NCBI GenBank assembly: GCA_947585605.1
Contig: CANPXC010000003.1
Location: 1-38,790 of the forward strand
Source: Candidatus Gastranaerophilales bacterium
Lineage (GTDB): Bacteria; Cyanobacteriota; Vampirovibrionia; Gastranaerophilales; Gastranaerophilaceae
Direction of reading: 5' to 3'
DNA length: 38,790 nucleotides
A model generated the notes under the pieces. It had not been told where the DNA came from, did not search any database, and saw only the letters and a list, made by a program, of their open reading frames with translations. The position numbers were made by a program, and so were the translations under genes. This document shows, in pieces, positions 3,015 to 29,400 of the stretch (the stretch's first letter is position 1; every line of letters begins with the position of its first letter).

Positions 3015-3758
3015 ATGTTAAATCTTCTTTCAGAAACAGATAAAATAAAAGAAATTGTAAAAAATACAAATTTACAGCATATAGCAATAATCATGGACGG
3101 AAACAGACGCTGGGCGAAGTCTAAATTCTTGCCGTCCGCAGCAGGACATAAAAAGGGAGTTGAAGCATTAAGGGCGACTCTTAAAGCATGCGCAAAATTC
3201 AACGTTAAATACTTAACGGTATATGCGTTTTCAACCGAAAATTGGAACAGACCAAAAGAAGAAGTCGAATTCTTAATGTCGCTTTTAGCTAATACAATTA
3301 AAGCAGAAGTCCCTGAATTTATTGAAAACGATATAAAATTAACCTTTATAGGCGACAGAAGCTCTTTAAACAAAGACTTAATTAAAGTTCTTGAATACGG
3401 AGAAGAACAAACAAATAATTGTAAAACATTAAATCTTCAAATTGCATTCAATTACGGTTCAAGGATGGAATTAACAAATGCCGTTAAACAAATATGCGAA
3501 AAGATTAAAAACGGCGAACTTACGGCGCAAGATATTACGGAAAAAACAATAAGCGAAAATTTATATACCTCAAACATCCCCGACCCTGATTTATTAATCA
3601 GAACGGGCGGAGAAAAAAGAATAAGCAATTATCTTTTATGGCAGTGTGCATATACTGAAATATATGTTACAGATACTTTCTGGCCGGAATTTGATGAAAA
3701 CGCGCTCGCCATAGCTATTACAGAGTTTAATAAACGTTCCCGCAGATTTGGAAAATAA
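3015..3758 (+). CDS. uppS: Isoprenyl (undecaprenyl) diphosphate synthase
   Basis: A cis-prenyltransferase that extends farnesyl diphosphate with isopentenyl diphosphate to the C55 lipid carrier of peptidoglycan and O-antigen synthesis. The 247 residues match the family length. Signature motifs are visible: HIAIIMDGNRRWA (residues 22-34, with catalytic Asp28 and the diphosphate-binding Gly/Asn/Arg), the AFSTENW segment near 76-82, and near the C-terminus RTGGEKRISNYLLWQ followed by the E-x-Y-V-T-D-T-F-W-P end motif. GAGAG at 3002-3006 is the ribosome-binding site. rdgB follows after three bases, so the two are co-transcribed. The identification is very firm. Confidence 0.95.
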   Translation: MLNLLSETDKIKEIVKNTNLQHIAIIMDGNRRWAKSKFLPSAAGHKKGVEALRATLKACAKFNVKYLTVYAFSTENWNRPKEEVEFLMSLLANTIKAEVPEFIENDIKLTFIGDRSSLNKDLIKVLEYGEEQTNNCKTLNLQIAFNYGSRMELTNAVKQICEKIKNGELTAQDITEKTISENLYTSNIPDPDLLIRTGGEKRISNYLLWQCAYTEIYVTDTFWPEFDENALAIAITEFNKRSRRFGK

Positions 3759-25826: not shown

Positions 25827-25841
25827 ATAATAAAACCATAA

Positions 25842-25873
25842 TAAAATCCCCGCTTTTTTGGGCGGGGATTTTA
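25842..25873 (+). terminator. Bidirectional rho-independent terminator after pfp
   Basis: Perfect 12-base stem TAAAATCCCCGC / GCGGGGATTTTA around an 8-base loop. It lies between pfp (+) and the FkbM gene (-), which ends at 25885, and can serve both. Confidence 0.88.
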
Positions 25874-25884
25874 TTTAATTTTCA

Positions 25885-27066
25885 TCAGATTTTTTCACAA
25901 ATTAATAAACATTCACTAATTGTACTGTTATATACAGGCTGATAAAAATCATATCTGTACTTATATTTTGAATTTTTCATAATTTCTTCAACCATAGGTT
26001 TTACTTTAAAGAAATCATGGCAATTATGGTAAATACTTAATAATAATACAGGTGCTTGAGTTTGCAATGTTTCTTTTGCGCCTTTTAAGAAATTAGGTTC
26101 AAATCCTTCTATATCAACTTTTACAAGCCCGACTTGCAAATTATTTTCTTTAACATAATTATCTAAAGTTGTCATTTCAATTTTTTCTTTTCCTTTATCA
26201 GAAATATATGAGCCGACGCCTAATGCACCAAAATAATCCATAGCGCAGGTTTCTTTTTTATCACCAAGCCCCATATTTTCAATAATTATGTTATTTGAAT
26301 TATTTAAAGAAATTGTCTTTTGGCAGATTTCATAATTTTTCTTAGTCGGTTCAAAACTTATTACTTTATTTTGCGGGAATTCTTTGCTGAAGACAAGCGC
26401 TGAATCTCCGATATTAGCGCCAGCATCTATTATTGCGCCTTGAATATTTTTATTTTTTAATGACTCAATACCGTGTTTATATAAAAATACGGAGGCTTCA
26501 AAAAAATTTACCGGTAAAATATAGTCTTTCCATTTGAAATAATCTTCATAAACTTCTATTTCTTTGTTAAATTGAGTTATTTTTTCAAGAGCTTCAAGTT
26601 CTTCTTTTGTATATATTTCTTGCGGAGCCGGATCACGATTTAAATCTTTTTTAAATTTTATTACCCGTGAATTACGTTTAATAATTTTATCCAAATTATT
26701 TTTTGCTTCGGAATCAAGGTTCTTATAAAGATTTTCCACCGTTAATTTATCATTAGGTTTATCGCTTTCTATAACTTCCTGAATTTCAGGCTTAGCAGCA
26801 ATATACCATTTTAATTTCAACAATTGCTCTATACTTGATATATGATTTAAAATATACTTTTCGTAAGGTGAACACTTAATTTTTTTATTTATTTTAAAGC
26901 CTAATATACAAATTTCTTTTTTAACTGATTTTAGAAAATCGAGTTTATCTGTTTCATACACATTTTTTACAGAAAATAAACTTTTCAGAAATTTTTTAGA
27001 ATTTAAAAATCCCCCCCCCGCGGCAGATTTACCGGATTTTTCATTTAAATTTATACTGTCATTCAT
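25885..27066 (-). CDS. FkbM-family methyltransferase with G9 run (candidate phase-variable gene)
   Basis: A 393-residue protein. Residues 1-190 are a lysine-rich helical region without known domain. Residues about 200-393 are an FkbM-type SAM methyltransferase: SAM loop IIDAGANIGDSALVF (212-226), SFEPTKKNYE (237-246), then LDNYVKEN, LVKVDIEGFEPNFLKGA and a hydrophobic strand. Such enzymes often O-methylate glycans or lipids. Codons 16-19 contain nine G in a row (27019-27011). Losing one G puts TAA at codon 21, gaining one puts TAA at codon 24, so slippage would turn the gene off. AGAGAGG lies before ATG 27066 and a strong promoter at 27094-27122. Confidence 0.85.
   Translation of the reverse strand: MNDSINLNEKSGKSAAGGGFLNSKKFLKSLFSVKNVYETDKLDFLKSVKKEICILGFKINKKIKCSPYEKYILNHISSIEQLLKLKWYIAAKPEIQEVIESDKPNDKLTVENLYKNLDSEAKNNLDKIIKRNSRVIKFKKDLNRDPAPQEIYTKEELEALEKITQFNKEIEVYEDYFKWKDYILPVNFFEASVFLYKHGIESLKNKNIQGAIIDAGANIGDSALVFSKEFPQNKVISFEPTKKNYEICQKTISLNNSNNIIIENMGLGDKKETCAMDYFGALGVGSYISDKGKEKIEMTTLDNYVKENNLQVGLVKVDIEGFEPNFLKGAKETLQTQAPVLLLSIYHNCHDFFKVKPMVEEIMKNSKYKYRYDFYQPVYNSTISECLLICEKI
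27011..27019 (-). repeat. G9 homopolymer in coding sequence (contingency tract)
   Basis: Nine C on the plus strand, read as nine G in codons 16-19 of the FkbM gene (AAGGG in protein). By eye it is one of only two G/C runs longer than five in the window. Both single-base length changes lead to early stops. Confidence 0.85.
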
Positions 27067-27093
27067 ATTCTTACCTCTCTGATAATAATTATA

Positions 27094-27122
27094 ATTATAT
27101 GTTACTAAAATTTTAAGTTCAA
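27094..27122 (-). promoter_or_regulatory. Promoter of the FkbM methyltransferase gene
   Basis: Minus strand: -35 TTGAAC (27122-27117), 17-base spacer, -10 TATAAT (27099-27094). The predicted leader is about 20 bases and includes AGAGAGG. It sits right behind the stop of the upstream gene. Confidence 0.65.
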
Positions 27123-27124
27123 GA

Positions 27125-27838: not shown

Positions 27839-28873
27839 ATGTTTACGGTAGATAAAGAAGAAATTATAAAAGGACTTGATAATTTATCCAAACCGTCAGT
27901 ACTTGTAATAGGGGATATGGCGATAGATGAAATGGTCTACGGCACAACAGACCGTATGAGCAGAGAAGCGCCCGTGCTTATTTTACGCCATTATAATACA
28001 AAAGTAATCCTTGGTGCAGCTTCAAATGCCGCACACAATTTAGCAACATTAAACGGCGGAAAAGTCAGCGTTATAGGTTTATATGGGGACGATTACTATG
28101 CTCCAATCCTTTTAAATACTTTTAAAGAAGCAGGGATAAATACCGAATATATGATAAAAGATGATACAAGAGCAACTACGGTAAAAACCAGAATATCAGG
28201 TTCTTGTTCTCAATCAGTCACACAGCAAATCGTAAGAATTGACAGGGAAACAATTACTCCTTTAAGCATGGAAATTGAGAATAAAATTCTTTCACAAATG
28301 GAGCTTGCAATTCCTAAACACGATGCAGTTATTTTATCCGACTATAACATAGGTATACTAACCGAAAAAATTATTGCCAAAGCAATAGAGTTATGCAAAA
28401 AATATAACAAAATTATTGTTGTTGACTCTCAAAAGGATTTAAACAGATTTAACGGCGTAACATCAATGACTCCGAACCAGCCTGATACCGAAAAATATGT
28501 CGGATTTTTTATTAAAGATGAACAAACACTTAAACAAGCCGGAAAAGTCATGCTGGAAAAAACAAACGCAGACTCCGTTTTAATAACCCTCGGCGGTGAC
28601 GGAATGGCGCTGTTCGAAAAGAACGGAAATTATGAAAAAATTCCTGTTTTTAATAAAACTGATGTATTCGATGTTACCGGTGCCGGAGATACAGTTGTTG
28701 CCGCGTATACTTTGGGTATGGCAGCAGGTATGAGCAAAAAAAATGCCGCAATACTGGGTAATCTTGCCGCAAGTATTGTTATAAGGTCTTTTGGCTGCGC
28801 AACTACTACCGTTCCTGTGTTAAAATCAGTTTTAGACAAAATGGATATGGAAATTTTTAAAATTAAATTTTAG
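27839..28873 (+). CDS. rfaE1: D-glycero-beta-D-manno-heptose-7-phosphate kinase (PfkB family)
   Basis: A 344-residue sugar kinase equal to the N-terminal half of E. coli HldE; it phosphorylates heptose 7-phosphate at C1 on the way to ADP-heptose for the LPS core. Motifs are VLVIGDMAIDEMVYG (21-35, substrate Asp26/Asp30), SREAPVLI, GAASNAAHNLATLNG, VRIDRE, LSDYNIGIL, VVDSQKDLNRF, TPNQPD and the PfkB signature DVTGAGDTVVAAY (278-290, catalytic base Asp284). The nucleotidyltransferase half is absent, so RfaE2 must be encoded elsewhere. GGAGAG before the ATG. First gene of a five-gene tightly spaced operon; DUF4330 follows after 8 bases. Confidence 0.9.
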   Translation: MFTVDKEEIIKGLDNLSKPSVLVIGDMAIDEMVYGTTDRMSREAPVLILRHYNTKVILGAASNAAHNLATLNGGKVSVIGLYGDDYYAPILLNTFKEAGINTEYMIKDDTRATTVKTRISGSCSQSVTQQIVRIDRETITPLSMEIENKILSQMELAIPKHDAVILSDYNIGILTEKIIAKAIELCKKYNKIIVVDSQKDLNRFNGVTSMTPNQPDTEKYVGFFIKDEQTLKQAGKVMLEKTNADSVLITLGGDGMALFEKNGNYEKIPVFNKTDVFDVTGAGDTVVAAYTLGMAAGMSKKNAAILGNLAASIVIRSFGCATTTVPVLKSVLDKMDMEIFKIKF

Positions 28874-28881
28874 GAGATATT

Positions 28882-29400
28882 ATGAATATTTTTAAAAAAT
28901 TAAAATTAACCGATTATATAATTATTTTATCAGTTATTATACTAATTGCAGTCGGATTACTTGTTGTATTTAAGAAAAAGAACTTTTCAAATCTGCCTGT
29001 TGAAAAAGAAGCTAAAATTCAATTTGAAGTATTTTTTAGAGGTGTAACGATTTCTGATACGGTTGTTCCGTTTAAAGCAGGTGATGACGCTTTTATTACA
29101 ATAAGAAATGTACCTTATACAAAGCTCAAAATCGTTGCAATGGACGGCAGCCCGAGAATGACAATAGTAAAAGCCGATAACAAAAACGGATACGCAGTCA
29201 TTGAAGATGTTTCAACTCCTAAGTTATATGATTTTATTATAAGGCTTGAAGATACCGCAAAAAAAACATCGGACGGTTATGTCGCAGGCGGAAATAAAAT
29301 TAAAATGGGCATTCCCGTTGTTATTGAAGGCGAAAAATATAAATATTCCGGTACTATCTCCGCTATTTATGAGGTTGAAGAAACTCAAAATAAACAATGA
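28882..29400 (+). CDS. DUF4330 membrane-anchored protein
   Basis: A 172-residue protein with one membrane helix at about 12-29 and a beta-rich extracytoplasmic domain (40-165). The pattern FEVFFRGVTISDTV, GDDAFITIRNVPYTKLKI, NKIKMGIPVVIEGEKYKYSGTISAIYEVE fits DUF4330, a family of small anchored proteins in cyanobacteria, Firmicutes and relatives with unknown role. TAGGAG precedes ATG 28882, and the stop overlaps the next start (ATGA at 29397-29400), so it is translationally coupled to the O-antigen ligase. This suggests a role in envelope polysaccharide handling (inference). Confidence 0.8.
   Translation: MNIFKKLKLTDYIIILSVIILIAVGLLVVFKKKNFSNLPVEKEAKIQFEVFFRGVTISDTVVPFKAGDDAFITIRNVPYTKLKIVAMDGSPRMTIVKADNKNGYAVIEDVSTPKLYDFIIRLEDTAKKTSDGYVAGGNKIKMGIPVVIEGEKYKYSGTISAIYEVEETQNKQ

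Follow-up and report, generated by a model that had tools for sequence, protein, structure and literature searches.

A poly-G tract as a proposed phase-variation switch of an FkbM-family methyltransferase gene in a gut Gastranaerophilales genome

Phase variation by poly-G tracts has been described most thoroughly in pathogens, among them Campylobacter, Helicobacter, and Neisseria. The gene ntHI0694 of Haemophilus influenzae 86-028NP encodes an FkbM-family methyltransferase and carries a (G)12 tract in its 5′ end (PMC2651432). The poly-G tracts of Campylobacter, surveyed with PhasomeIt, peak at 9 and 10 residues, and 77% of them lie in ORFs (PMC6321876). Homopolymeric tracts of Helicobacter canadensis include those of putative methyltransferases, and C-terminal switching has been proposed in this species (PMC2823697). 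The locus described here is similar to ntHI0694 in the enzyme family, in the position of the G run near the ORF start, and in the proposed outcome, which for ntHI0694 is a variable O-methylation of LPS. It belongs, however, to another phylum and to a genome with about 40 poly-G loci, whereas mononucleotide tracts are rare in H. influenzae, in which tetranucleotide repeats dominate.

The locus is located in a window of 38,790 nucleotides (positions 1–38,790 of contig CANPXC010000003.1) from the Candidatus Gastranaerophilales metagenome-assembled genome (MAG) GCA_947585605.1, which consists of 172 contigs with a total of 1.79 Mb and is 84% complete. The lineage belongs to the non-photosynthetic gut Cyanobacteriota. 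An earlier note, made on this DNA from its sequence alone, knew of no described case of a contingency gene in this lineage. No description of phase variation in Gastranaerophilales, Melainabacteria or Vampirovibrio was found in the open-access literature either; the sole match dealt with flagellins and was irrelevant. With G12 known from the FkbM gene of H. influenzae and poly-G tracts known from Campylobacter, the mechanism itself is not new. It is the lineage that appears to be new with respect to the open-access literature.

The methyltransferase gene (25885–27066, minus strand) encodes a protein of 393 amino acids. Its start codon (27064–27066) is preceded by GAGAGG, which resembles a Shine-Dalgarno (SD) sequence. 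The G9 homopolymer occupies positions 27011–27019 of the minus strand, where the first 20 codons of the ORF read ATG AAT GAC AGT ATA AAT TTA AAT GAA AAA TCC GGT AAA TCT GCC GCG GGG GGG GGA TTT, so that the run extends over codons 16–19. Its length exceeds the cut-off of 7 or more G for phase-variable genes (PMC6321876). The loss of one G places TAA at codon 21 and leaves a peptide of 20 residues, and the gain of one G places TAA at codon 24 and leaves 23 residues. The sequence is thus as the earlier note had read it, and the G+C content of about 30% given there is near the 32.8% measured for the window. The same note concluded that either slip abolishes the enzyme. This is certain for the loss of one G. 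For the gain it is too strict, because a second ATG (27042–27044, minus strand), 25 nt upstream of the tract, comes in frame with the methyltransferase at G10. This ATG has no SD sequence and is in frame only at G7 or G10, while the SD-preceded start is in frame at G9 or G12. The +1 state may therefore be leaky or weak and not strictly off.

The assignment of the product to the FkbM family is supported by profile searches, in which the ORF matched PF05050 with 53.7 bits (cut-off 22.7) and TIGR01444 with 110.9 bits (cut-off 37.7). The FkbM domain extends from amino acid 212 to 370 and is located entirely downstream of the tract, so that a change of the tract length shifts the frame before the domain. 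Inspection of the ORF sequence revealed no in-frame ATG between the tract and the domain. The putative enzyme has a conserved SAM-binding motif, the block D-A/V-GANIGDS, which is invariant or nearly so across the eight homologs described below. A search of viral contigs yielded no relatives of the protein.

Together with seven proteins of 53–64% identity, the window gene forms a group of eight close homologs within the genus. All eight carry a run of G8–G10 within the first 29–47 bases after the best start, although the residues flanking the run diverge in the alignment. The methyltransferase is in frame with the SD-preceded ATG in five of the eight (L031, L032, L035, L047, and L057) and out of frame in the remaining three (L033 with G10, L034 and L046 with G9 each), counts that rest on MAG assemblies, which may contain homopolymer errors. 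For L033 and L034, which have a secondary start in frame with the current tract, out of frame means off from the best start only. All of the out-of-frame copies retain about 380 open codons downstream. L033 (genome G032), L034 (genome G026), and the window gene all adjoin the same core gene. The first two each have a 38-nt leader, for which G8 and G11 are the calculated ON lengths; the actual tract is G10 in L033 and G9 in L034. This syntenic pair indicates that the tract has changed in length at one site between related genomes. The tract is thus variable among relatives, in a comparison between species, with lengths of G8, G9, and G10 and with both ON and OFF states. A second G9 run is located just 3′ of the FkbM gene in both L033 and L034, separating that gene from another ORF, at a conserved place.

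The glycine residues encoded by the run align in most of the homologs, which would be expected if the protein needed a Gly-Gly-Gly linker and the DNA run were incidental. The run consists, however, purely of G in all eight homologs, although GGG accounts for just 11% of the glycine codons, and it is read in different frames. The three homologs that are out of frame from the SD-preceded start already largely refute the linker. The nearest homologs outside the genus, in genus g12, have neither the G run nor any glycines at this place. In the homolog L184 of genome G092 (C22:7848–7911), 16 copies of a tetranucleotide directly follow the start codon at the position of the poly-G run, and the frame is open. 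Six or more copies of AAAC occur in only three places in the 191 genomes of the family, and the L184 site is the sole one in G092. A short GAAA series occupies the poly-G position in another homolog, L183. The g12 proteins show that no glycines are needed at this position and that a slip-prone repeat recurs there. Similar runs are also found between genes and in unrelated genes of the window genome. A required glycine linker is therefore a highly improbable explanation of the tract. That a tetranucleotide takes the position of the G run in a homologous gene is an unusually clean sign of selection for switching itself. Most of the more distant FkbM homologs in the family are without poly-G, and three show runs at different places. 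This implies that the switch at this site is characteristic of a single clade of the gene at genus level.

The abundance of long G/C runs in the genome is far above the chance expectation. The window contains no runs of 6, 7 or 8 residues, one of 9, and one of 10. Under a third-order Markov model, the expected number of runs of at least 9 is about 0.007 for the window and about 0.3 for the 1.79 Mb of the genome, in which at least 38 were observed. The run-length distribution was determined in 406 kb, which comprise nearly all tract-bearing stretches (all but one or two) and ten tract-free contig ends of 20 kb. It is bimodal, with 69 runs of 5, one of 6, none of 7, three of 8, 17 of 9, and 21 of 10; since selected regions are included, the counts at the low run lengths are a sample. 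In total, 41 runs of 8–10 were listed, and the 104 overlapping G8 matches in the whole genome imply one or two tracts beyond these. Homopolymers are error-prone in metagenome assemblies and the FkbM gene is accessory, so the tract might be an assembly or sequencing artefact, or the gene might be in neutral decay. Against this stand the recurrence of the tract in separately assembled genomes, the near absence of runs of 6–7 where runs of 9–10 are common, a spectrum that errors would not yield, and the intact downstream codons of the out-of-frame copies. We regard artefact or decay as very unlikely.

About 28 of the 41 tracts are located within ORFs and about 11 are intergenic. Many of the intragenic tracts are found in surface-glycan genes according to a Pfam tally of the marked ORFs. 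The products include two glycosyltransferases of family 2, a heptosyltransferase of family 9 (GT9), acyltransferase 3, an AlgX-like protein, a polysaccharide pyruvyl transferase with an FrhB-type neighbour, TupA-like ATP-grasp, WbqC, RgpF and WbsX proteins, methyltransferases, and two additional FkbM proteins. Some tracts are near the 3′ end of an ORF, for example at C21:7668 and C126:3373. At locus L076 (G000:C109), with tracts at 3144 and 4064, a G8 run is located where an FrhB/FdhB-type ORF meets one for a polysaccharide pyruvyl transferase, and one additional G would fuse both into a single frame of 745 codons.

This set of tracts resembles that of Campylobacter in the peak at 9–10 G, in the mostly intragenic location, and in the presence of both ON and OFF states. 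It differs in the share of intragenic tracts with C on the coding strand, about 30% here and 5% there (PMC6321876). The window genome shares with H. canadensis three sites of poly-G runs, namely methyltransferase genes, promoters, and the vicinity of 3′ ends. The tracts of H. canadensis are longer (G9–G16) and their variation was seen by sequencing of the population, whereas here it is seen by comparison of homologs.

The second tract of the window, a G10 run at 303–312 of the plus strand, is intergenic. It is located between divergent ORFs, upstream of the ORF at 353–1441, and is followed 7 nt later by TATAAT, which forms an extended −10 element (TATGCTATAAT). At least five intergenic tracts, including this one, have TATAAT 7–9 bases after the run. 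In contigs C71, C91, C125, and C156, the G run is followed by nine bases, mostly TAAAAGTGG, and then by TATAAT. The short distance of TATAAT from these tracts suggests promoter-spacer switching, and the run at 303–312 and the four others may represent a class of poly-G promoter-spacer switches.

The earlier note had derived a glycan role for the methyltransferase from adjacent heptose and O-antigen genes. This argument is weak. The FkbM gene and its tract occupy a segment of about 1.3 kb (25827–27124, minus strand) that is absent from genomes G037, G022, and G029. In these genomes, orf27125, which is present in 39 of the 41 genomes of the genus, directly adjoins the gene for a pyrophosphate-dependent phosphofructokinase (PFK), with no FkbM gene between them. 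The adjacency of the flanking genes in relatives without the FkbM gene shows that the gene and its tract are an accessory insertion between core genes. The heptose-7-phosphate kinase-like gene at 27839 belongs, like orf27125, to the core; its match to TIGR02198 (306 bits) is below the cut-off of 345. The gene at 29397, previously taken for an O-antigen gene, scored best with IctB, also below the cut-off. None of PFK, orf27125, and the TIGR02198-like kinase links the methyltransferase functionally to glycan biosynthesis, and since the neighbours adjoin each other without it, they lend no support to a glycan role. A surface glycan is nevertheless the likely substrate, judging from the enzyme family and the other tract-bearing genes.

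Long homopolymers can cause polymerase slippage. The tract might therefore act as a site of transcriptional or ribosomal slippage. In that case, every cell would make full-length and truncated product in constant proportions, and there would be no heritable switch in the DNA. The presence of both MutS1 and MutL in the window genome would favour such a reading, as mismatch repair would stabilize the DNA. The reading is hard to reconcile with the G9 and G10 tracts at the same locus in different homologs, with the tetranucleotide repeat of L184, which fits slippage at the DNA level, and with the tracts in promoter spacers, where there is no frame to slip. Slippage of RNA polymerase or of the ribosome is thus improbable, if slightly less so than the linker or an artefact.

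The presence of MutS1 and MutL sets the window genome apart from Campylobacter and Helicobacter. With both proteins present, slippage may be slower than in these two genera, of which Campylobacter is also unrelated in lineage to the Gastranaerophilales within the Cyanobacteriota. Across the sampled genera, genomes of g18 and g19 without G9 (for example, G131, G133, G149, G190, and G200) often are without MutL and have MutS1 below the cut-off, and tract-rich genera have both proteins. This is the opposite of what would be expected from mismatch-repair loss. It is a trend only, with exceptions (G175, G150, and G291) and few independent losses.

The earlier note compared the layout of the gene with that of contingency genes. 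This comparison is supported by the retention of the tract in all eight homologs despite their diverged flanks, by the mixed frames with intact ORFs, by the one-G difference of the syntenic pair, by the other repeat type in another genus, and by the tracts in glycan genes throughout the genome. We propose, with a probability of about 0.88, that G9 is a hypermutable tract through which the FkbM methyltransferase undergoes translational phase variation. The tract would gain or lose G residues by slipped-strand mispairing when the DNA is replicated. At G9, and likewise at G12, translation from the SD-preceded ATG would produce the enzyme (ON). At G8, the product would end after 20 codons (OFF). 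At G10, the product from this start would end after 23 codons while the second, SD-less ATG is in frame, and the state would be OFF or weak. The translation of the methyltransferase would thus be switched heritably and reversibly between ON and OFF, perhaps between ON, OFF, and weak. The accessory insertion would carry its own switch along; including this one, about 40 loci of the genome are marked by poly-G. As a likely outcome, methylation of a surface glycan would vary stochastically.

Runs of G9 or longer are present in 236 of the 286 sampled genomes of the order. The counts per genus are inflated for some genera, as overlapping matches within one long run are each counted (in genome G194, for instance, a single run at the end of a contig spans 48 bases), and high values are therefore not taken as numbers of tracts. 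In genus g3, ORFs of G194 (L217:19721, L220:13478, and L220:19681) share similar starts, ATGAAA followed by AACATGTATGCA or a close variant, which lead into G12–G13. These ORFs form a recurrent family whose members may be phase-variable.

The gut Gastranaerophilales probably possess a large poly-G phasome, in which tens of slip-prone tracts per genome mark glycan genes and promoter spacers across much of the family, alongside intact MutS/MutL. Accessory genes would move their own switches between genomes, and a tetranucleotide repeat would even take over the site of a poly-G run. If this is true, these uncultured and apparently commensal gut Cyanobacteriota would generate stochastic diversity of their surface, probably to counter phages, antibodies or a change of niche. 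Glycan genes that appear frameshifted in Gastranaerophilales MAGs should then not be dismissed as pseudogenes.
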